DNA of 64,000 bases, taken from assembly GCA_963920765.1 (NCBI GenBank), contig OY987246.1:11280868-11344867 (forward strand). The letters run 5' to 3'. The position numbers and the translations under genes are program-made. Source of the DNA: Ulota crispa. Its lineage: Eukaryota; Streptophyta; Bryopsida; Orthotrichales; Orthotrichaceae. Shown here piece after piece: positions 8,361 through 59,041 of the stretch. The notes under the pieces are model-generated. The model worked only from the letters and a program-made list of their open reading frames with translations, made no database searches and was not told where the DNA came from. Within the stretch, counting starts at the first letter, position 1; every line of letters begins with the position of its first letter.

Positions 8361-9053
8361 TTGCTATTTTTGTTAATTTGGGAAAAATAGGTGTCCCACT
8401 TTGTACTCCACTTGAAACCCTAAAAGTTACCTTAAACCAGCTTCAAAGGTATTAGATTTGGTTTGAGCCACTTAGAGTTTTTCCCTTGCAAACTCCTCTC
8501 AGGTGAGGACACGTGTACAAAAAAAATAGGGGATATTACAAATAGGGGCATGAAAACATAAAATATTACATGTAGGGGCTCATTTTCAAAATAATTACAA
8601 ATAGGGGCATGATTTCAAACAAAATTTTAATTTTTTGTAATTTTTTTTTGTTTGGACATTGGTTGATTTAGATAAATCACATTAAAAGTTAGCTAAGTTC
8701 CCAAAAATTTAAAATTTTCAAAAAAACGCCATCCCTTTTATCAAAATTTCTTATTTTAGGCTTGATTTGGAGAGACCTATAAGTTTTTTAGAAAATAGCT
8801 AACATTTAATGTGATGTATCTAAATCAACCCAATGTTCAAACCTAAAAAAAACTAAAAAAATTTACAATTTTTTTAAAAATGTGCCCCTATTTGTAATTA
8901 TTTTGAAACTGTGCCTTGTCTGTAATTTTTTACGTTTTCATGCTCCGATTTGTAATTTCCCAAAAAAATATTGAGCTCAGTTTTAAGGGATCACCTAAAA
9001 CCTTTTGAAAGTCCCAAAATGTACCGTTTTTCCCAAATTAACGAATATGGTGT
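8361..9053. mobile_element. Family G copy 2, interrupted by a younger element
   Basis: The left half runs to ACACGTGTAC near 8518 and the right half resumes at TTGAGCTCAGTTTTAAGG near 8971, ending GAATATGGTGT. The two halves together are collinear with the intact copy at 7248-7482. The break is filled exactly by the family-H element at 8529-8961 with its duplicated 9-bp target. Confidence 0.65.
8529..8961. mobile_element. Mutator-like long-TIR MITE, family H copy 1
   Basis: 433 bp and close to a perfect palindrome: both arms contain TTACAAATAGGGGCATG-type blocks, with a short centre around GGCTTGATTTGGAGAG. It is flanked by the 9-bp duplication AAAAAAATA at 8520-8528 and 8962-8970. A 9-bp TSD with long TIRs is typical of Mutator-like elements. 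Copy 2 is at 50951-52672. Confidence 0.75.
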
Positions 9054-17506: not shown

Positions 17507-17590
17507 AACCCCTAAATGCCCAAGGCACCCGAATTTGGTGTTTTCAACATTAGAATTCTATACCGGGGCCATTTAGAATTTTAGAGGTTA
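17507..17590. repeat. Possible 80-bp relic of a TTAA-flanked element
   Basis: Begins TTAACCCCTAAATGCCCAAG, identical to the consensus end of the 43382-44022 element, and 60 bp later has GGGGCCATTTAGA and TTTTAGAGGTTAA, resembling a right end. It may be a deleted copy or a solo end. Confidence 0.35.
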
Positions 17591-21598: not shown

Positions 21599-22134
21599 CC
21601 CGTAAAGGCCCAAGGGGGTAAGGGCAAAACATATATGTGTAAAATGGTACTTTTGTACCTTGGATGAAGTTCGCTTTAAAAGAGAATAAGAATTATAATG
21701 TTTAGTAATTGTTCATACGGTCCAACATTTAGAAAAAGTTTTGGATTTTTATGAAATGAATTTAGAAACATTTACCATTTAATATTCACAAAAATTACAA
21801 ATTTTACTCATAGATTTCAAATTTTGGTTTGATTGGTTAAAAATAGACATCTTATCCTAAACTTCAAAATGCAATTTTTTGAAAGGAGAGATTATCATTA
21901 GTTCCCAAAATAGTAAATTTTACAACACTAGCAAGTATTGAAGTGTTTATCTTTGAAAATTTCTCCTTGGTGTAGTTTAACTTGTATTGACATGATTCAA
22001 GTTAAGTTGAAAAGTAGACTTGATTTTCTACTTCAAAAAAAATGTTTTTTTGAAAGAAAAAAATTGTCTCAAGCAGCTTGAACAAAACGGGCAACAACCA
22101 AAAAATGATCAATTGAGCGCTTAGGGGTTAGGGG
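21599..22134. mobile_element. TTAA-type element (family D group), copy with diverged ends
   Basis: Left end TTGA|CCCGTAAAGGCCCAAGG and right end GCGCTTAGGGGTTAGGGG|TTAA correspond to the CCCCTAAATGCCCAAG ends of 43382-44022. The interior (AAATTTAC, CTCCTTGGTGTAGTTTAAC and others) matches a second copy at about 53431-53808. Confidence 0.55.
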
Positions 22135-41232: not shown

Positions 41233-42152
41233 TAATAGTATTACTGGGGTTTAAAGAATGGGGCTTTTACTATTGGATTTCTAAAAGGAAAAAATATCAT
41301 AAATGCCTCCCAATTCTTTCAAATTATCAACTACACCTCTATATTGATTGAAATATCAAAAATACCCTTGGTTTCAAGGTTTTTTTTTCATTTTTTTGAA
41401 AATACCAAAGAGGCGATTTAAAATGTTATGGTGGTGCTCCAAGTTTCAACATTAATATTGGATAGAAAATATCACATTAGCACATAATACATGTTTATAA
41501 TTTGGTTTTCATTCACAATTTGGCGATTTCATCCAAAAAAAATTTAATTTGAAGATTTTTTGGCGATTTCATCCAAAAAATCATGTTTTTTTTTCTATAG
41601 GCTTGGTGCCAGTCAAAAAAATTGGTGCTTTTTTGCTCCAAATTGCCAAAAAAAAAACACTGCTTGGTTTTGTGTAAGAGTATCAATTATGCCCCTACAC
41701 ATCTTTGAAAAAATTTAATACCCTAATTTTTCTTGTACCTATTTAGTGCAAATTTTTGTAAATATTAGGATGACAATGGAAATTACAAAAGCTAGATGCA
41801 AGTTGAATGTAAGTCAAATATTGGAGGCAAGCTCTTCAAATCTTATATAAGGTTTTTGCATTTTAAGTTTATTGTGGCCAAAACAGTTGCATTGATTGAA
41901 CAACATGTGTTTCTTTGCCAATATCTTTGGCCAGTGCAAGTGTGACTAACAAAAAAATTAGCAAAGAGACACAAGGAAGTTTTAGACTTGGTGAAGAATT
42001 GACTACTTGGGAAGGGTTTGAGTAAGGATCACTACAATTTATCCCCAACTCTAAATAGGTCCAATCAACATAAATTACTTTACGCATTCCCTAAACACAC
42101 TTGTATATCATAATTTCAAGATTTACAAAGCACAAAGGCGTTGATAGATTAA
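41233..42152. other. AT-rich intergenic DNA
   Basis: No gene. A short duplication, TTTGGCGATTTCATCCAAAA, occurs at about 41519 and 41558. Confidence 0.45.
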
Positions 42153-43066
42153 CCCCTAAAGGACCAAGCCCAATTTTCTGCCAAAATCACTAAAAACGGC
42201 CACTTTTAGGAGGTTTAGAAAAAGGGGATTTTATGTTTTGTTTTTGGGAAATCCAGCCATAGGATCTTGCCCCAGACTAGATGAAGTACTTATGGGGGAA
42301 AAAATCATCTCATTCCAGATGTAGAGGAGTGACATATTTACATGTAAAGTGACAAGAAAAGTTTCTTTCCATGTTGCCCAAAAATTTCAGAAGCCTTTGA
42401 CCACTCTTACAACAAAAAAATTGCTTTACCCAATGTTGCGCTTTATTTTTTACATGTAGGAGATCAAGTTAGGTATGTGTGGGAGAATTTTCAAATCAAT
42501 TGGAACTATACAACACATGGGAAAAATCAATAAGTAAAAAGAAGTAGAAAATGAGTCAAAACAAAAAATTGTTAAACATTTAATTATGGAAATGAAAAAT
42601 GCTAATCCCAACGGTGATAATGTTGCGATAATCAATCTACTTCCTTCAATTTAATTTTTTTTCCAAAATATTGAAAATTGAGTAAAATAAAGGACTTCAA
42701 AGTTTATTTTACAGTAGAGATTCCATAACTGCCCGCAAGCAAAAACTCCTCATAACTTTCATGTCATTGATTGAAATTGAATGATTTAAAGCTTCTCATG
42801 AACAAACAAATCTAAAGAACCAATTTCAAATTTGTGTTTTAGAAAAATGAAATTTTTAAAGAAGTTTTTGGGCTCCCCAAATTTTTAGAAATTCATGCAT
42901 AACTTCTTCATCAAATGTCATAATGAAGAAAAAATTAAATGCCCACGTAGGTCTTTGAATTCCCCACCTTCAGTAAAAATTTCAGAAAATCACACAAAGT
43001 AGTTTGACCATAGATACATGCCCAAAGTCCAACTTGTCCCTCAAAGGGACAATGATCCTTTAAGGA
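42153..43066. mobile_element. piggyBac-like non-autonomous element, family A copy 1
   Basis: 914 bp between two TTAA tetranucleotides (42149-42152 and 43067-43070). Left end CCCCTAAAGGACCAAGCCC; right end is the imperfect complement GATCCTTTAAGGA. The interior (ATCAAGTTAGGTATGTGTGG, ATTGAAAATTGAGTAAAATA) is shared with 46313-47223 (inverted) and 57986-59041. No transposase frame. TTAA duplication with CCC-starting ends is the hallmark of piggyBac transposition; the superfamily call is inference. Confidence 0.65.
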
Positions 43067-43381
43067 TTAAACAACAAAATTTTGCACTCATCTTCTCAAT
43101 CTCTTAAATACACATCAACACACACATAAATATATACCATTTTAAAGATAGGTTAAAATTGGTATGAATTCATGGCACATACTCTCAAGTTCCCAGTGGC
43201 TTAAACTTAGCTAAAAATATTCCAACTTCTTTCCTGGACCAGGTTAAAAAGTAAAAGTTTACCCATACTCTGCAATTGGATGATTACGTCTGCCTAACAA
43301 GTTTCTTCCGTGATCAGGGTGTCTGTGTCTAAATATGATTTTTGAACATTTCCAAATTTCATCTTCTAGTGGTAAGCTTAA

Positions 43382-44022
43382 CCCATAAATGCCCAAGGCG
43401 TTGCTGAGCTTCTTGGAATTTTCATGAAACTCAACAATCAATTAACTTTTTCATAAATTTTATCAAGTTTTTTTCAATTGTAACCATACAAATTTAAACT
43501 AAACATGTTAAAGATTATTTGGGAAAAGAAAACACAACAATATCATTTATAGTTTGAAAGATTATAATGTTTGAACATGAGCGTGTTAAAATTGCAAAAG
43601 TGACTTGAAGTCTTCTAATCCTTATTTCACATGTCATATCTAAAAAATTGGTCACCAAAAAAATTGAGGTTTAAGGTCATTACATGTCTAACTTTAATCA
43701 ATTCACGGTTCCAAAAATACACTCTTAGATTTTTTTTAACGGATTTCTAATGTGGATTTTTCTCCAAACTCTAGTGTATTTGAGGCTCATTTTCAAGATC
43801 TTCCAACACTAAAAACTCAAGATTGCAATGGACACCCTTGTCTAAAATCTTGAGTAGAAAAAGCATGAACTTCCATATTCAAGATCAAGTTTTTGATGTT
43901 GAAAATAGACTTCAAAACAAATGTATACTGAAAAAGAAAATGGAAATTAGTGGTTTGATAAGGTTTTATTCATCTTTGAAGTTTTGTAGAGACCCAAATC
44001 TGGTTGCTTGGGCATTTAGGGG
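43382..44022. mobile_element. piggyBac-like non-autonomous element, family D
   Basis: 641 bp with perfect TTAA on both sides (43378-43381, 44023-44026) inside a GCTTAA/TTAAGC context. Ends CCCATAAATGCCCAAGG and the complement TTGGGCATTTAGGGG. Different interior from family A, but the terminal CCCCTAAA is shared. Confidence 0.65.
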
Positions 44023-44185
44023 TTAAGCTTAAAGCACAAATTTTTGCGTCATCTCGGGATGTTAAAAGAATCCACAATTTTCCAAATTTGATCTTCTAGT
44101 CATAAAATTGATATTTTGTGTTTTCTCCCAAAGTAAAAACAAATGGAGGTTGCACATGTGGGATCCATTTACCGGTGTGAGATTA

Positions 44186-44499
44186 GAGCATCTCTAGTGG
44201 TCCAAACTCACTCAAAGTTTTTCACCTAATTTGGCGAGGCCTAAAGGCTCTCAATCTCCACCCATGCTTTTTGAAAAGGTGGCCTTACACTCCAACACAC
44301 CCCATAAATAAGTAGTTGACCACTTATTTAAGGAAGTAGAGAATAAAGCTCACTAAACTTAGGGTGAACAGTGCATGAATAGTGGCTTGGAGAGTGGCTT
44401 GCTAGACTTGTCAAATAAGACAATTTGAGAGGGTTTTGAGAGGGGCCTGGCTACTTTTCATCCACTTTGAGCGAGCCAGAGCCACCGGTGGAGATGCTC
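44186..44499. mobile_element. Tourist-like MITE (TTA-flanked), separate family
   Basis: 314 bp, TTA on both sides. Ends GAGCATCTCTAGTGG and the complement CCGGTGGAGATGCTC, the common end type of plant PIF/Harbinger MITEs. The next element (family F copy 3) starts 17 bp later. Confidence 0.75.
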
Positions 44500-44515
44500 T
44501 TAGTATACATTGGTG

Positions 44516-44828
44516 CAGTGGTGCTTGGTTAATGTCAACCTTTGTAACAAAAACAATTAGATAGGATCACAATTCTATTCTCCTTTTGTCCAAAATGTGA
44601 TTATGATCCTAGTTAAGATCAAATGCTTGTGTACAATCAACATTTGTTTTTCATCATTGCCCATTTTGAGTCATTAACTAAAAAGGCATATTGTAAGTGA
44701 ACCAGAACCACCAGTACCAAACAAAACTAGGGGAAGCAATGCAAATGGAGGGCTTGTTAATGATCAATGTTTGGATAAGGTTAACATTTTTTTTCTAGCC
44801 AAGTATTGACCTAATCCAAACACCATTG
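44516..44828. mobile_element. TA-flanked MITE, family F copy 3
   Basis: Ends CAGTGGTGCTTGG and CCAAACACCATTG; right flank TA, left flank TG. Same orientation as 17815-18141. Confidence 0.65.
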
Positions 44829-44906
44829 TACCAAGGAGCAGTTTTGACTATGCCCCATTTCCAATCTCCGTAGGCCCAGCCTCAATTCAAGATCCCCTCT
44901 TTATAA

Positions 44907-45234
44907 AGTTATTAAGGGTAAAAATGAGTTAAAAAAAAGTCAAGCATATTTTGCAAAAAAATTGGTGGGATTTAGGTTGAAAGTTGGGAGTGTTTTATAC
45001 TCTGTCCCAAGTCCCATATCCCAATTCATTGTATTTTACTTACATATGAGCACTTTATTAAAGATATGGTGCCAATATAGGTGAAACTTCACTCAAAATT
45101 ATTTGGGTTATTTGGGTTGACTGTATTACTAAACCCAATTTTAGCTAAACCCAATTTTTAGCACAATTCCCACCAATATTTTTGTATAAAATATTCATGG
45201 GTTTTTTAGTACCTTGTTTTGCTCTTAATAACCC
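44907..45234. mobile_element. Probable TIR element
   Basis: GTTATTAAGGGTAAAAATGAG at the left and the complement of GTTTTGCTCTTAATAAC at the right, with AAAATTGGTGGGA/TCCCACCAATATT nearer the centre. A single copy; the ends are approximate. Confidence 0.4.
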
Positions 45235-45414
45235 ACCGAAATCGGGATCTCACTTTGAGGTGGGACGTTGTCTGAAGAGCCCTTAGGTTGAAAAATATGG
45301 TCAACCCGAACCAGTTCCACCTTTTTGGTTCCAAACTTCCAAAACAAAATGCCATGTAGATGAAATGCAGTGACACAAGAAGTAGGCTTGGGATACAGTT
45401 TGAATTACCAAGTA

Positions 45415-45978
45415 CTCCCTCTGTCCCAATATAAAGCTCCATATTAGGCATAGTTCTTAAAAGCTTCCTTTTGCTAATTTCAATTGCTCAGAAAGCGTTT
45501 GTCATGTTTAATGATCTCATGGGGTAAGTTAAGCAATTAAAGAGATTTCCTCTCCTAACAAGCTTGGCCTTGCCCATATGAGGTATCATTGTTGCTACTA
45601 GTCTTTAAATCATCAATAATGAGGAGCTAGTAACATGTACAAATATGGTACTTTTTAATGGAATTTACGTGCCCAAATGACAACATCAAAGTTGGAGATT
45701 TTGCACACATTTGGTAGATGGTATATTGATTTTATGGACACATGTGTCATTAGTACAGAGACTAAAATAATGAGAAGCCCGCAGCCTTCACAAACTATAC
45801 ACAAATATAATATTTTTGCATGAAATTTGGGTGTTTAAACAGCAACATAAAAACTTGCAATTTTACATATATTTGATAGGTGGCACATTAATTCTAGAAT
45901 GCATTTAACCTATTGAATAAAATTCAGTTAATACCTCATGGAGAAGTTTTTTGGAGCTTTATATTGGGATAGACGGAG
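45415..45978. mobile_element. Stowaway-like element copy 1
   Basis: 564 bp with TA on both sides. Ends CTCCCTCTGTCCCAATATAA and the complement TTATATTGGGATAGACGGAG are the classic plant Stowaway ends. The interior holds two copies of a 160-bp unit that occurs three times in copy 2 (57172-57913). Confidence 0.9.
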
Positions 45979-46312
45979 TAAGCTTTTAACCAATCAAGTT
46001 CTCATATTTGAGTGGGACGTAATGTGTACGTCCCCTAAGTACCAAAAGTCGGACGCTTTGGAACATCAAATCCTAAGCGTTTTTCATAATAAAGTTTTTT
46101 GTTCCCACATAAATTTGATATACTGCACTGTAATTGCACTAACTTATAATGAGCAAGTAGAATCAGAGAGAAATCTTTTTTGGGGGTGGACTCTCCGTCA
46201 CTTGATGTTAGATACCTTGACACGAAAAAGCATGGATGTAATATAGGATGACATTGCTAAACCCCTTGCAAGGAAACATTTGGAGCACCAAAACTTTGAT
46301 GAAAATTATTAA

Positions 46313-47223
46313 CCCCTAAAGGACCAGACCCCTTTTTCAGCAACATAACGATTTTGGGTAGGTACCTGTGATTGGAGCTTTTCATATTTTAGGCTGCAAT
46401 CTTAATAGAATGTGGGCACAAGGTTTATCTTTCATATGCACTCAATTTCATGATATTTGAAATTATGATTATAAAGTTATGGCCTAATATGTTTTTTTTT
46501 TCACTAGACAGGTAGCCCGGGCAAATTTTTAAAATTTATCTTCTTCAAAAACAAAAATAAAAAAATAGGTTTAGGATATTTATGTGAATGTAGGAAGCTT
46601 TGAATCATTCCCTTTTGATCAATGAGATGAAAATTATGAGGAGTTTTTGCTTGCCGACAGTTATGGATTTTCTACTCTAAAATAAACTTTGAAGTCCATT
46701 ACTTTACTCAATCTTCAATATTTTGGAAAAAATTAAAACCAAAAGATATGAACTGTTTATTACAACATTACGACCATTGGGATTGGCATTTTTCATTTCC
46801 ATAAATAAATTCTTAACAATTTAGTGTTTTGAATCATTCTCCACTTATTTTTACTTACTAATTTTTTTCTACATGTTATACAATTCCAAATGATTTGAGA
46901 CTTTTTGACATGTACTTTACTTAGGTGGAATAAGGAATTTAGAGAAGTACCACCCACACGGCCTTTTTTCCTTAGGAATTTCACCTTCTAAAGGATAACT
47001 GCCTAGTTTTTCTCAAGATGATTTTGAATATTCAAACCATTCTATCTTCCAATCTGCGAGGTGAAAAACTTTGAAAAAAATTCCACAACTTTTGAAACTA
47101 TTCTTCTACAAGATCTTATGGTCACTTGTGCATAAAAGCGTTTTTGTTTTCAAATTTGGTTAATGCTCTAAAATGACAGTTTTGGAGAGTTTTTAGTGAA
47201 AACTTTGCTTGGTCCTTTAGGGG
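46313..47223. mobile_element. piggyBac-like non-autonomous element, family A copy 2 (inverted)
   Basis: 911 bp between perfect TTAA sites (46309-46312, 47224-47227). Ends CCCCTAAAGGACCAGACCCC and the complement TTGGTCCTTTAGGGG. The interior is the reverse complement of copy 1. Confidence 0.7.
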
Positions 47224-50388: not shown

Positions 50389-50950
50389 AATACTCTCAAT
50401 AAAGTTTTGAACACTCCATGTCAGTAGATATCAAGGTCGGCGCTTAGAAAGACCAGTGGACATTTGGATAACAAATGTGGTGCTTTCAAAGAAAGAACCA
50501 TATAAAGAACTTCGACAACTACATGCTAACATGTCTTTCTAGCAACTAGGAGAATAGGGCTCAATCCGCAGCACATACATGCTTTTGGGATTAAACTTAC
50601 AGAGAAATTGCTTTGATTTTTTTATTGTCAAAAAGTGTAAGAGTTTAAGTGTTGACCATCAAGAGATTGAATTTGCAAAATTTGAATTTACATTTGAACT
50701 CAAATACTCTAATTTAGTTTACAACTACACAGGAGGATATATCCAACTCCAACATACAAAAGCAATTTATTATTTATACATTTATTTGTAAAAAAGGCTA
50801 AAAGTTTCCATCCTAGTCCCACAAACACGTATGTGTAATACACCAAGCTGAAGGAAAATCATAATAAGAAAAGATTCTATATATCCAAAAGATTCCCAAA
50901 ATCCAACTCCTATTCCTTGATTTCAAATCTAAAAGATAACATTTTAGTAA

Positions 50951-52672
50951 GGGGAAATTCCAAATAGGGGCATGAAAACGTAAAATATTACAGATAGGGG
51001 CGTAGTTTCGTAATAACTACAAAGAGGGGCATGATTTTTTTTAAAAGAATTTTTTGTAAAAAGGTTTTGGTTTGGACATTGGTTAATTTAGATACATCAC
51101 ATAAAATGTTAGCTAACTTCCAAAAAAAATTAAAGTTTCCAAAAATTGCCATCCCCTTTACTATAATTTCTTTATTTAGGCCTAAGGGGGTCACACCCCT
51201 TTACAATTGGATACCACCTACGCTAATGGGGTAATTAAATGGGGGGTATTTAAATTCTTTAAGGTGATTTTCCTCCCTTTCTTTAAATAAAAAAATACTT
51301 TAGTGTATTTTAGGGTACCCTATGCTTATTTCTAAATGGTTATATGACCTAATTTTTCAGACCCTATTTTTTTTACAAGTACAAAAGTATGATAAACAAA
51401 ACTTATGTGTATACAATTGGTTTATAGAAGACTTTGGCCCACAAGAAAATAGTGTAAGAATTTAACATATAGCAAGTCCCTCAAACCTTACTTACAAAGT
51501 AGCCTTCCTAAACCCTAACTCATTCCTAAAAATTCAGATTACCTTCAACCACATGCATACTCAAGAAACGGCAAATGACAAGCTTTGAAGCATTGAATCC
51601 TAAAATGAAGAAGAAAAGTGGAAAGGAAGAAAACCGGGCAGAGGACAACATGTAAGATTGAGTGTGAACCCGAGCTCTTACTGTCAAGAACTGCAAAAAG
51701 AACTGAGCAATAACGCCAACGTCCACCTCTGTTGTTGGCAAAGAAGATAAGAAATCCAACCTTGAACGTGCCAATGAAGAAAACAAATCCAACCCTGAAT
51801 GCAAACTCCACAAAGCTCACACTCCTGCGCTTGCAAGTACAACGATGTGAGGAAAATTCTGCAAGGAGGATGAGAAGCTTCAATTGTATAGCACCTCGCC
51901 GCCACTTCCAGCGCGTTAAGATAATCGAGGGAGAAAAAAATTGCAAACAACAAGAAATCAATCTCAAATTTGAGAATCCTAAGTGCCATCAATAGCAATG
52001 TTAAGCTTAGCATAAGAGCGTGTAAAGAAGCCAGCGTGTAAAGAATCCAATGTGCTTGCAAGTACAAACCCTACTCTTGAGATTTCACAATAATGCCAGC
52101 CTTTGCCAGCACTCCTAACCCTTCTTCAATTACCCTATAGCCTATTGCTAAACCCTAAACTGTTACACCCTAAAACCTGGACAAAAAAACAATTTTCATC
52201 CATATTGCTCATGAACTCTAAACCCTACACTCATCCTACTAAACTCTTTTAGGATAATCCTATAATTCTCACCCTTTTTTTTTCCAGTATTCTAAAATGG
52301 AGGATTATACACCACCCTATTTTACATATATTGAAGTAAGACATATTTTTCCAATGCTATGTTAAATCTAAAAAAGATATAAAATTTATCTCGATTGAAT
52401 AAAATTGATCCTATTTTTTATCTCACGTAGCTTACTAAAAATGGGAGAGTGACCCCCCCCCTCGAGATATAGGCTTGATTTGGAGAGATCTTTGATTTTT
52501 TTAGAAATTAGCTAACATTTAATGTGATATGTCTAACAACTAATGTACAAACCAAAAAAAATTACAAAAATTTACAATTCTTTTGAAATCATGCCCCTAT
52601 TTGTAATTATTTTGAAACTGCGCCCCTATTTGTAATATTTTACGTTTTCATGCCCCTATTTGTAATTTCCCC
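50951..52672. mobile_element. Mutator-like long-TIR MITE, family H copy 2, split by family I
   Basis: Perfect 9-bp duplication TTTTAGTAA at 50942-50950 and 52673-52681. Arms start GGGGAAATTCCAAATAGGGG and end TATTTGTAATTTCCCC. Both arms match 8529-8961; the centre is interrupted at 51182-52466 by a family-I transposon. Confidence 0.85.
51182..52466. mobile_element. Family I transposon copy 2, nested in family H
   Basis: Left end CTAAGGGGGTCACACCCC, right end GTGACCCCCCCCCTCGAG. Flanks ATTTAGGC (51174-51181) and ATATAGGC (52467-52474) form an 8-bp duplication with one mismatch; removing the element restores the family-H centre seen in copy 1. The interior differs from copy 1 and includes GC-richer DNA (51540-52060) with open frames on both strands but no recognisable domain, possibly captured sequence. 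Confidence 0.8.
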
Positions 52673-52681
52673 TTTTAGTAA

Positions 52682-53430: not shown

Positions 53431-53808
53431 GGCCCTTAGTGAATTTAGAAGCATTTATCATTGAATTTTCATCAGAATTACTATTTTTATTTGTAGAATA
53501 TAAAATTTGATATGATTGCCTTGAAAATAAAAATTCTATTTTAGAACTCAAAATGCAATATTCTTGAAGGAGAGAACATCATTAGTTTCCCAAAATAGTA
53601 AATTTTATTACATTAGCAAATATTGAAATGTTTGTTTATGAAAAATTCCCCTTGGCGGAATTTAACTTGGATTAACTTGATTCAAATTGGGTTGTAGAGT
53701 AGACTTGCTTTCCTATATGAAATTAATTTTCAAAAAAATATATTTTTTCATCTCAATTAGCCAAGAAAAAGGGCAACTACCAAAAATCCTCGATTGGGCG
53801 TTTAGAGG
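53431..53808. mobile_element. Partial copy of the 21599-22134 TTAA-type element
   Basis: Interior blocks (TTAGTTTCCCAAAATAGTAA, CCCCTTGGCGGAATTTAAC) and the right end GGGCGTTTAGAGG|TTAA match 21599-22134. No clear left end. Confidence 0.55.
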
Positions 53809-55288: not shown

Positions 55289-57171
55289 TACCTACCGTAA
55301 TCTGTAGTTTTTGTACATCCTTGTCTAGTCTAACAAATGTTGGAACCAAAATAGTTCATAAAGTTCTTTGTTTTTTCAATGAAGATAAAATAGTGATTTG
55401 GCATCTCTTTTTAAGATTTTTATTGCTGATCTTGTCATCCAAATATTTTGAAGAATTTAGCAGGGCCATATTTTTTTGTGTAGAAAAAGGAATCCCACTA
55501 TAGAAATTGCCTAAGCAAATTAAAATCTTGGATAAGAATTTCTATGCAGTTTCAAAGATGTCCTTCTTGAAAATGTAACTTTTATTTGTTGGCAGGGGTC
55601 ATGAGCAGCCTAAAGGAAATCATAGTCAAACACAAATGGGCTCAAAATCCACAATCTTGAGCAATTTAAATTTACCTTTAAACTAATTTACTTGAGATGT
55701 TCTGCTAAGGACGCAAGATTCAAACTAAACTGTCAACCATAATTGATGATATAAATAATTTTAATCACCATTTGTTAAGCCTATTACCTTTCATAGATAG
55801 TACCGAAAATACCTTTATTGTCAACCATTTCCACCCCTCACCTAACTGCTTCTCACGTCATTTTCTCACACAATAAAGGATAAGAAGAGGAATAAAGATG
55901 GGATAGTTCTATGTGATGCGAAATTAAAGATGTGCTGGAGAATGTAAAATTGTACAAAACAAGATATACCACCTTAAAATTCAGAAAGTTTGATGATTTT
56001 ATGAGGCAAACAAAGTTACAATGCCAGTTACCATACAACAACTGGAAGACAATAGAATATGCATTGAAGGTGGAAAGGTGACTAAAATGAAGGTTGAAGG
56101 CCCGCAAACTTTTTCTTTTTTCAAGGATGATAGTTCTATGTGGCCATATGGTCCACAATTGCTATGTTGTGAACATGGAGAAATGACAAACTGCTTATAA
56201 ATGAGCAATTTTCTTTTCCAAGTATCCCGACAAATCACGTTCCAAAAAGAAATCCTTTTCCAAGTAAAAGCAATAAAAATAATCAAACTTTTATCTTAGA
56301 AAACTTGATTGATAACAGAAAATTCAAAATTATTGGCTAGCCCAGTTGTACCATATTTTGTATCATTAGTCCCTAGGGTCAAATTTGTCCTTTTATTTTA
56401 GAGTTGTGTGTATGCGTAGACTTCTTTTCCCCAATCTATTGGCAAAGGTACAGCGTACTTGCCAGCACATATAGAATGGTCACTTAAAATTACCAAAAGA
56501 AGTTTTTCTTAGTCTTTCTGAAAAGCAAGCTATATTGGTAAACCAGTAGGGGAGCAAATATTCTGAGGCGTTTTTGGAGGAGGAAACCATGGTCTTCTTA
56601 GGCAAAATCAATGTTTTCTCATTAGAAATCAAACAAGTTTTGAGCACCTAGTGAGGTGTAAAAAAGTGCAAACGTGGGCATTTTGTATAAGAAAACAAAG
56701 AAACTATAGTGAAAGATATCAATAAAATCTACAGTATAAGCAAAAAAAAATTGTAAAGAACTGTGCAAAATGTACCAAACTTAAATTTCCCGATTATGGA
56801 GTTATTCTGATTCAAAACACATCAATAATATCAGTTTCAATAAATCCTCAATATGCAATCAGGAGCTAGAGGACCTAGAATTTTAGCATTTTTGAATGAT
56901 ATTAGTATATGAGTTTGCACAGCTGGCCATGTGTGGCAGGTTTCACTAAAACTTACCTTACACTTACTGAGTTTAATATCTTGTTTTTGGGGCTAGGATA
57001 AATTAGATTTGCTATCTATGACAAGGGAAAAAGTAAAAATGTACTCTTGTTTTAAATTTGGTCATTTTAATTCCATTGTGGCTTCCCCATGCTGAATCGA
57101 GGTTTTTGAATCCAAATTTTAATTTTAAACTCTCAATTACAATCTCCAGATGGTAAATTTATAAACTCTTA
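55289..57171. other. AT-rich intergenic DNA, no gene
   Basis: Only short open frames without motifs; no repeat matched to the rest of the window. Confidence 0.45.
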
Positions 57172-57913
57172 CTCTTTCTGTCCCATTATAAAGCTCCAAA
57201 AACTTCTCCATGAGGGATTAACTGTCTTTTTAGTCATTATGCTAGTGACAAATGCATTCTAGAATCAATATACCACCTACCAAATATATGCAAAATTTCA
57301 ATTTTTTATGCTGCCATTTAGACACCTAAATTCCATGCAAAAAGTACAATATTTATGCATAGTTTGTCAAGGCTTCTGGCTCCTCATTATTTTAGTCTTT
57401 ATACAATGACACATGCATTCTAGAATTAATGCACCACCTACCAAATATATGCAAAATTGCAAGTCTTTATGTTGGTGTTTAGACATCCAAATTCCATGCA
57501 AAAAGTACCATATTTGTGCATGGTTTGTGAAGGTTGCGGGCTCCTCATTATTTTAGTCTCCGCACTAATGACACATGTGTTCTAGAATCAATATACCATC
57601 TACCAAATGTGTACAAAATCTTGAGCTGTGATGTTGCCATTTGGGCACCCAAATTCCATGCAAAAAGTACCATATTTGTACATGTTGCTAGCTCCTCATT
57701 ATTAATGATTTAAAGATTAGTAGCAACAATGGTACCTCATATGGGCAAGGCCAAGCTTGTTTGGAGAGGAAATCTCTTTAATTTTTTAACTCGCCCCCAT
57801 GATGTCATTGAACATGACAAACGTTTTTTGAGCAATTGAAATTAGCAAAAGGGATCTTTTTAGTGGGACAAAAACTATGCCTAATTTGGAGCTTTATATT
57901 GGGACAGAGGGAG
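57172..57913. mobile_element. Stowaway-like element copy 2 with three internal 161-bp repeats
   Basis: TA on both sides; ends CTCTTTCTGTCCCATTATAA and the complement TTATATTGGGACAGAGGGAG. Three tandem units start TGACAAATGCATTCTAGAAT near 57246, 57408 and 57569 (period 161-162 bp). Copy 1 (45415-45978) has two such units, inverted. Confidence 0.9.
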
Positions 57914-57985
57914 TACATCTTTTAGCATGTGAAATAGCAAAGTTTCTTCATCTTGGCTCAACAAACAAAGTGTGAAAGTAATTGA

Positions 57986-58104
57986 CCCCTAAAGGACCAA
58001 GTCATTTTTTTTGCCAAAATCATTGAAAATTGGGATGAGTGAGAAGGAACATATATATATACATATATATATATATACATATATATATACATATATATAT
58101 ATAC

Positions 58105-58202
<98 letters not shown>

Positions 58203-59041
58203 AAATCCAACCATGGGATCTTGCATTAGACTAGAAGAGGTACTTGTGGGAATAAAATCAGGTCATTTTAGATGGAGCATAGGGGGATATTTACATTTAA
58301 AGTGAAGGAAAAAGTTTTTTTCCTTACTGTTTGTAAATTCTAGAAGCCTTTGACCCCTCTTACATGAAAAAAATTGCTCTACCCAATGTTGTGCTTTTAA
58401 TTTACCATATAGGGGATCAAGTTAGGTATATGTGGGAGAATTTCAAATCAATTGGAACTATACAACAATACCGGAAAAAATTAGTAAGGTAAAAAGAAGT
58501 AGAGAATGAATCAAAACACTAAATTGTTAAGAATTTAATTATTGAAAAGAAAAATGCAAATTGCAATGGTTATAATGTTGTAATAAACAATCTACTTCCT
58601 TTGGTTTAGTTTTTTTTTCCAAAATATTGAAAATTGAGTAAAATAAAGGACTTCAAAGTTTATTTTAGAGTAGAGAATCCATAATTGCCCGCAAAAAAAA
58701 AACTCCTCATAACTTTCATCTTATTGATTGAAATGGAATGATTCAAAGCTTCCCTTGTATAAAAATAAATAAAGAACCAATTTCAAATTTGTAGTTTTAA
58801 AAAATATGAGTTTTAAAGAAGTTTTTGGGCTCCCTGGACAAGCAATCTTCCTCAAGTTTTCAGAAATTTTTGCATAACTTCTTTATCAAATGTCAGAATG
58901 AAGGAAAAATTAGATACCCACTTAGATCTTTGAACTTTCCATTGCCCACAAAAGTTTCAAAAAATCACACAAAGTAGTTTAGCCATAGGTACATGCCCAA
59001 AATCCCATTTGTCTCTTGAAGGGACAATGGTCCTTTTGGGG
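57986..59041. mobile_element. piggyBac-like non-autonomous element, family A copy 3
   Basis: Left TTGA|CCCCTAAAGGACCAAGTC and right GGTCCTTTTGGGG|CTAA, both one base off TTAA. Collinear with 42153-43066, except that about 45 bp after the first 60 bp are replaced by a large AT microsatellite. Confidence 0.65.
58051..58200. repeat. AT microsatellite
   Basis: 150 bp of ATATAT with ACATAT interruptions in the first half, inside the family-A element. Open frames reading Tyr-Ile repeats on both strands are artefacts. Confidence 0.97.

Follow-up and report, generated by a model that had tools for sequence, protein, structure and literature searches.

Short elements lying between TTAA tetranucleotides recur in the window (the whole stretch of moss DNA analysed here, 64,000 nucleotides long), and they raise the question of what kind of transposase has moved them. 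A sequence-only reading of this DNA had proposed that two families with different interiors, A and D, share their ends at TTAA and belong to the piggyBac superfamily. We consider it highly probable that the window elements are MITEs of this superfamily in a moss, that family A comes from a transposase-bearing element, and that family D and a third family, E, were moved in trans.

Elements of the window

Allowing at most one mismatch, the window contains 10 occurrences of the end pattern TTAACCCCTAAA where 0.67 would be expected, and none of 100 shuffles contained 10 or more. The shared ends of A and D at TTAA are confirmed; the flanks TTGA and CTAA of the A element at 57986 are each one base off that tetranucleotide. 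The ends of the window elements start with 5'-CCCC.

Table 1. Location of the elements in the window and the basis of their limits
Positions	Strand	Feature	Basis
17509..17587	+	79-bp element, D-like ends, TTAA on both sides	end pattern; limits
21599..22134	+	third family (E), 536 bp, flanks TTGA/TTAA	limits; BLAST
42149..42152	.	left target copy TTAA of A element	sequence limits
42153..43066	+	family A MITE with a decayed right end, 914 bp, flanks TTAA/TTAA	limits; alignment to long element
43067..43070	.	right target copy TTAA of A element	sequence limits
43382..44022	+	family D MITE, 641 bp, TTAA/TTAA	limits; genome-wide candidates
46313..47223	-	family A-type MITE, 911 bp, TTAA/TTAA, inverted relative to 42153	limits
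53431..53808	+	relative in family E without a recognisable left end; TTTAGAGG at the right end, followed by TTAA	end pattern; comparison with 21599
57986..59041	+	family A MITE of 1056 bp containing an (AT)n run, flanked by TTGA/CTAA	limits; alignments

Compared with the A element at 42153, the one at 57986 is 81% alike over 840 bp, and the middle of the one at 46313 is 79% alike over 373 bp. The elements at 21599 and 53431 (75% alike over 370 bp) had been regarded as relatives of D. This assignment was rejected, since neither has a BLAST match to the D element at 43382 at E 1e-3. They form a third interior family that has only the style of its end in common with D.

The window families are short, non-coding and present in high copy number, and they have TIRs and a TSD, as MITEs do. 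There are no open frames of at least 130 aa inside the window elements. Within the searches made, no transposase turned up in the window, in agreement with the sequence-only reading: the best match there of an HMM made from retrieved proteins has E 5.1, and all of the 15 best tblastn rows listed fall in another locus, L042. Since this HMM gave even the L042 pseudogene no better than E 0.0086, it could overlook a badly broken fragment in the window.

Ends and target sites across the genome

In the 275 Mb of the moss genome searched there are 8,876 exact CCCCTAAAGGACCA ends, and 7,555 of them (85%) stand directly after an exact TTAA, the target-site duplication of the piggyBac superfamily; exact TTAA is lacking at the other 15%. 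D-type CCCCTAAATGCCCAAG ends are preceded by exact TTAA in 2,742 of 3,244 cases (85%). Reversed-pattern controls gave 0 for all four patterns. The share of positions taken up by TTAA is 0.73% in 262 kb of DNA of the same genome. Thus, in this genome-wide tabulation, duplications other than TTAA did not turn out to be the majority.

In the 262-kb sample, TTAA is present on both sides of 26 of 36 end pairs and at 75 of 99 ends; 20 of its 21 sources had been picked for carrying the TTAA-bearing pattern. We used only coordinates and flanks from it, since overlap between the patterns makes its "GGACC/GCCCAA" end labels untrustworthy. In a separate list of paired ends, some rows wrongly join nested or neighbouring elements. 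Among 164 TTAA-flanked ends, selected by their core with at most one mismatch, 97% begin with C. A passage of PMC10140906 gives piggyBac termini as CCC/GGG with a short TIR, and the window elements have such CCC-starting termini and a short TIR.

Family D has 4,223 first-look candidates genome-wide. Of 40 that were scored, one is the element itself, and the other 39 are 86-92% alike over at least 614 of its 641 bases. A query holding an A half gave 6,461 first-look candidates.

Empty sites were sought by joining the flanks of candidate pairs at one TTAA and comparing them with paralogues. A single TTAA was found for L020 594-1514 against window positions 21858-22042 (89%), for L043 5936-6473 against L038 (83%) and L030 (81%), for L040 6384-7314 against L040 (92%), and for L042 6159-7071 against L036 (80%; the alignment is rich in gaps immediately to the right of the junction). 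Many spanning matches have TCAA, TTGA, CTAA or other sequences in the paralogue and not TTAA, and the total of 73 matches includes repeats of one locus and wrong-pairing artefacts. The single-TTAA sites are compatible with excision and with a site that never had an insertion alike.

A longer element with a piggyBac-type transposase

Three loci (C5, C1 and C9) resemble one another over about 5.1 kb; the left end of this long element lies beyond the stretch read. Over 3,592 bp, C1 is 91% and C9 84% alike to the C5 stretch, and a further 500 bp upstream are common. The right ends of the three copies read C[CT]CCT[AG]AAGGAC followed by TTAA, with a CCCCTAAAGGACC-type tip; beyond TTAA their flanks differ, as compared by eye over 37-76 bases. 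The A elements at 42153 (E 5.6e-34; its left part of about 360 bp) and 57986 (E 2.2e-26) align to the last 360 bp or so of the long element, out to the tip. A joined-query search for the left half of the MITE adjoining long elements found none.

Of C1 and C9 only the right ends were read; the transposase was read in the C5 copy. Two open pieces there match DDE_Tnp_1_7 (PF13843), L052:2212-2571 (50.4 bits) and L052:2626-3108 (31.8 bits), the Pfam cut-off being 22.4 bits. In tblastn against L052 the best E value was 3.7e-25 (P0100), with 2.0e-22 for an insect protein (P0110, Eumeta). The gene is a pseudogene with stops and one frame change. Residues D43, D130 and D248 of its read-through are invariant in five aligned proteins, and we take them to be the piggyBac catalytic DDD triad. 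The longer copy with this domain and the same ends, which the sequence-only reading had suggested looking for, thus exists as a pseudogene in C5 and agrees at its right end, the one readable end.

The proximity of end and gene could be accidental: an ordinary MITE end fragment might lie by an old piggyBac gene, with the three long loci being segmental copies and MITE and transposase unrelated. The unread left end of the long element, the other nested repeats of the C5 region and the presence of duplicated segments in the genome (flanks are common to the L042 transposase locus and its partner C8) would all allow this. However, just one half of a MITE is matched and the match runs into the tip, and all three long copies break off at one and the same base, at TTAA, with differing flanks, a pattern not predicted by segmental copying. 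We therefore regard chance proximity as very unlikely. The L042 locus itself has DDE_Tnp_1_7 at L042:9418-9819 (minus strand; 35.6 bits), and in 7.5 kb of the L042/L051 transposase locus the one thing seen was a separate MITE, the locus itself showing no CCCCTAAA end. The L042/C8 pair was not used to set element limits, its flanks being shared too.

TTAA is also the target of Sola3. Kolobok elements duplicate TTAA as well and are reported from chlorophytes and rhodophytes in a passage of PMC9587614, which gives their termini as 5'-RR..YY-3'. The moss ends, in contrast, begin with 5'-CCCC, C being the first base of nearly all the ends inspected, and the transposase that goes with this end is of the piggyBac type and not the different type that had been named as an alternative. 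Kolobok MITEs are thus extremely improbable here. PIF/Harbinger (Tourist-like) MITEs, which a passage of PMC10004981 records in angiosperms and whose 3-bp TTA/TAA duplication is contained in TTAA and might be misread as such, have a negligible chance of being the answer, given all four bases on both sides in most end pairs, several paralogous empty sites that keep one TTAA, and the linked piggyBac transposase.

The piggyBac reading is supported both by TTAA at the exact ends and by DDE_Tnp_1_7 in a long element with the same right end. Because a broken transposase gene is still present in this long element, whose end and TTAA target are those of the short ones, thousands of short elements have very probably been moved by a piggyBac-type transposase. 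Such a transposase would recognise CCCCTAAA(G/T)G... ends and cut the elements out, and these would then be put in at TTAA with duplication of the target. Family A very probably descends from a long element with the transposase gene and still has that element's right-hand end. Apart from the end itself, nothing in the sequence of families D and E ties them to a transposase; for D the tie is the end and its TTAA. Since D and E share only end and target, either the same transposase or a sister of it most likely mobilised them in trans. We infer the catalytic steps, the cross-mobilisation of D and E, and an intact element that once existed or still exists.

Known piggyBac systems and the moss transposase

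The moss elements resemble piggyBac of Trichoplusia ni, the type element, in the TTAA duplication, the ends starting with CCC, and DDE_Tnp_1_7, in which three aspartates align and the C-terminal part carries Cys. They differ in the moss host, in the greater length of the long element (nested repeats included) and in the prevalence of MITEs among the copies seen. In animals, short elements assigned to a piggyBac-type transposon are listed for Daphnia (mPok of Pokey, PMC4912750), and term counts for PMC2872659 suggest a piggyBac tie for coral MITEs. The moss elements stand apart from these in their host, in their thousands of copies and in having several unrelated interiors per end type.

The view that the superfamily is scarcely documented in land plants calls for a correction. 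PiggyBac is already listed for angiosperm MITEs (PMC10004981), land plants (PMC4438587) and a fern (PMC6890710), the same superfamily assignment as ours, but what these passages give are lists or counts, and neither a moss nor a CCCCTAAA family tied to a transposase appears in them. A search of the literature on bryophyte and plant piggyBac gave nothing useful among the matches listed; a passage of PMC10619864 uses "piggybacking" in a different sense.

The moss family turns a loose entry of plant catalogues into a sequence-supported case. PiggyBac is a standard gene-transfer tool that has mostly been studied in animals. Thousands of natural ends provide material for asking what its transposase needs, and an intact copy, if one exists, could become a native system for moss genetics.

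Searches of viral and prokaryote contig collections with transposase alignment A1 gave 49 and 37 pattern stretches, respectively, with 0 confirmed. Tentatively, mosses may carry a deep piggyBac lineage of their own, missing from named plant records in one search, whose ends seeded a burst of some ten thousand MITE copies with several unrelated interiors under one end type. The moss transposase groups with 85 proteins that have no organism label. Support for this grouping is 0.85 in a tree of 55 of the 85 (at least 300 aa), 17 other retrieved proteins (the "ins" set, several without organism label), four others and the moss sequence, a sample from two biased searches. The moss sequence is 24% identical to P0001, which equals the T. 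ni piggyBac sequence over residues 130-540, and 50-67% identical to three aligned label-less proteins.

TTAA targets and terminal sequences of the MITEs

The window (G000:C5:11280868-11344867) belongs to a genome that comprises 274.8 Mb in 157 contigs. The window contains three elements of family A (A42153, A46313 and A57986, named by their start positions), one of family D (43382), two of family E (21599 and 53431) and one 79-bp element with D-like ends. The sequence-only reading had treated the elements at 21599 and 53431 as relatives of D; this was not borne out, and both belong to family E. TTAA lies directly outside each recognisable end in five of the seven elements. The flanks of A57986 are TTGA and CTAA, and those of the element at 21599 are TTGA and TTAA. 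Near-exact TTAACCCCTAAA sites are found 10 times in the window versus 0.67 expected.

Genome-wide, exact TTAA stands just before 7,555 of the 8,876 occurrences (85%) of the 14-base end CCCCTAAAGGACCA and before 2,742 of the 3,244 occurrences (85%) of the D end. Reversed-pattern controls for the A and D ends gave zero occurrences in the genome, and the TTAA background is 0.73% of positions in a 262-kb DNA sample. In this sample, whose loci other than the window were chosen for the pattern (which leaves the genome-wide counts as the less biased measure), TTAA is present on both sides of 26 out of 36 paired ends; the departing sides are one or two bases from TTAA in eight of the remaining 10 pairs.

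The D element as a query gave 4,223 first-look candidates genome-wide. Forty copies were scored, one of them being D itself, and the other 39 are 86-92% identical over at least 614 of 641 bases. Since the window D differs by 8-14% from these 39 best-scoring copies, the burst is, on this divergence, not very recent.

A transposase-bearing element and its link to the MITEs

A set of proteins related to insect piggyBac, whose named members all come from insects, was compared by tblastn with the DNA sampled. The best 15 rows all fall in one locus, L042, close to its edge (best E 2.8e-11); once the adjoining L051 is added, the beetle protein P0095 gives the lowest value, 8.8e-22. The transposase gene of this locus is broken, and no end like that of the long element described below was found nearby, where there is only a separate MITE. 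Its partner on contig C8 has the same flanks, which argues that the pair was copied as a segment; the insertion of the transposase stretch is older than the segment duplication. The duplicated segments (G000:C1:2125099-2130099 and G000:C8:10215932-10220080) are 84-97% alike in matched pieces, with an old piggyBac transposase stretch in each.

The transposase DNA of L042/L051 matched 24 stretches of the genome (21 candidates) at 65-100% identity, itself included. One of them, C5:3050470 (L052 with its surroundings), has two long open pieces above the DDE_Tnp_1_7 Pfam cut-off of 22.4 (50.4 and 31.8 bits). The encoded transposase aligns with piggyBac at the motifs IDE, DNFFTS and RGVDVADQ, and its three aspartates are invariant across five aligned proteins. 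Because its frame is interrupted by stops and one frame change, the C5 copy cannot be active as read.

With 40 of 2,001 candidates scored, L052 was matched over 3,592 bp at three loci, namely C5 itself, C1 (91%) and C9 (84%), and a further 500 bp upstream are common to all three. Past the transposase gene, the last 280 query bases match a high-copy repeat. The long element is known over about 5.1 kb, including the right end (see the table); the left end lies farther out. Beyond the terminal TTAA the right flanks of the three copies differ (by eye, 37-76 bases), and this break favours transposition of the long copies. In the three copies the shared stretches lie almost equally far apart (760, 763 and 752 bp), which suggests that the copies hold the same two nested repeats, and thus that spread or copying followed the repeat insertions. 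A fold-back repeat of about 440 bp is present in several copies, at 8521-8971 and 50950-52676 of the window and at 170-606 of L052, where it is nested inside the long piggyBac element.

Right ends of the long element and empty sites with a single TTAA at the junction (for empty sites, the location is that of the candidate element, and the empty paralogue is the sequence it is compared with)
Feature	Location	End sequence	Compared with	Identity
Right end, C5 copy	L053:244, C5:3052744	...GGTCCTTTAGGGG-TTAA		
Right end, C1 copy	L054:240	...GGTCCTTTAGGAG-TTAA		
Right end, C9 copy	L056:42	...AGTCCTTCAGGGG-TTAA		
Empty site	L020 594-1514		window 21858-22042	89%
Empty site	L043 5936-6473		L038 / L030	83% / 81%
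Empty site	L040 6384-7314		L040	92%
Empty site	L042 6159-7071		L036	80%, gaps just right of junction

A42153 aligns with the end of the long element at 72% over 273 bp and at 75% over 64 bp ending in TTAA (E 5.6e-34). For A57986 the figures are 71% over 276 bp and 80% over the final 51 bp (E 2.2e-26). The two sets of alignments combined span the last ~360 bp of the long element. The MITE L023 matches this end at 70% over 483 bp. A46313 and D gave no match to it at E 1e-3, and under a looser limit only the tip of A46313 matches the long element. These alignments tie family A by sequence to the piggyBac element; families D and E are tied to piggyBac by end and target only.

On the features testable here (for the long element, the right end only), the fit is to the piggyBac superfamily. 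The initial piggyBac assignment is supported by TTAA at 85% of ends and by DDE_Tnp_1_7 in a long element with the same right end. PiggyBac elements are excised through hairpin intermediates and joined to TTAA. By analogy, a piggyBac transposase would bind the CCCCTAAA ends, and the element would be cut out through hairpin intermediates and then joined to TTAA. Family A would be a deletion derivative of the transposase-bearing element, and D and E probably borrowed the ends. The termini of Kolobok, as given in the accessible part of PMC9587614, do not fit.

Lineage of the moss transposase

A search that reaches only proteins with short words common to the query gave 89 relatives of the moss transposase. 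Of these, 85 (P0241-P0325) are 38-67% identical to it; their origin is given as jgi, lgn or ena, labels taken here to mean metagenome or read-archive sources. The other four (P0326, P0327 and two beetle proteins from Ignelater) are at 26-29%, after a gap in identity. The moss protein falls within the P0241-P0325 group in a 77-sequence tree, beside P0241 (pair support 0.98). By these comparisons the moss lineage stands apart.

PiggyBac as a plant label is already known, as far as the accessible parts of three papers go: it is listed among angiosperm MITE superfamilies (PMC10004981) and among superfamilies present in every group examined, land plants being one of these (PMC4438587), and 1,230 copies were counted in a fern (PMC6890710). 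Among the open-licence PMC papers listed (some listings giving a part of the matches), none was seen that describes a moss piggyBac family. The interest of these elements lies in their host, their abundance and their isolated lineage.

Empty sites and other features of the window

The two flanks of each candidate element were fused with one TTAA between them, and the resulting sequences were searched against all DNA sampled (83 pairings, used only with at least 80 bases per side). The 73 spanning matches include repeats of one locus and wrong-pairing artefacts. Besides the empty sites in the table, many spanning matches have TCAA, TTGA, CTAA or sequences less similar to TTAA at the junction point; these support the insertion position, not the exact TTAA target. 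Ends of the CCCCTAAA type also stand tip to tip with a single TTAA between them (L023 2432-2440, L030 144-171), as expected for insertion into a TTAA beside another element.

Two window elements (about 45413-45981 and 57170-57914) have, by eye only, TACTCCCTC...-like ends, with CTCCCTCTGTCCC on one side and GGGAGTA or GGAGTA on the other; they resemble Stowaway-type MITEs. Another MITE-like unit of about 315 bp (about 44186-44499) has inverted ends GAGCATCTC...GAGATGCTC, also by eye. The window is plant DNA, and its host is taken to be a moss on the basis of one encoded protein. This is a dihydrouridine synthase of 332 residues, whose best named relatives are those of the mosses Physcomitrium and Ceratodon (77-80% identical); Sphagnum and Marchantia are at 74%, flowering plants also rank below these two mosses, and the top matches overall reach 83-87%.
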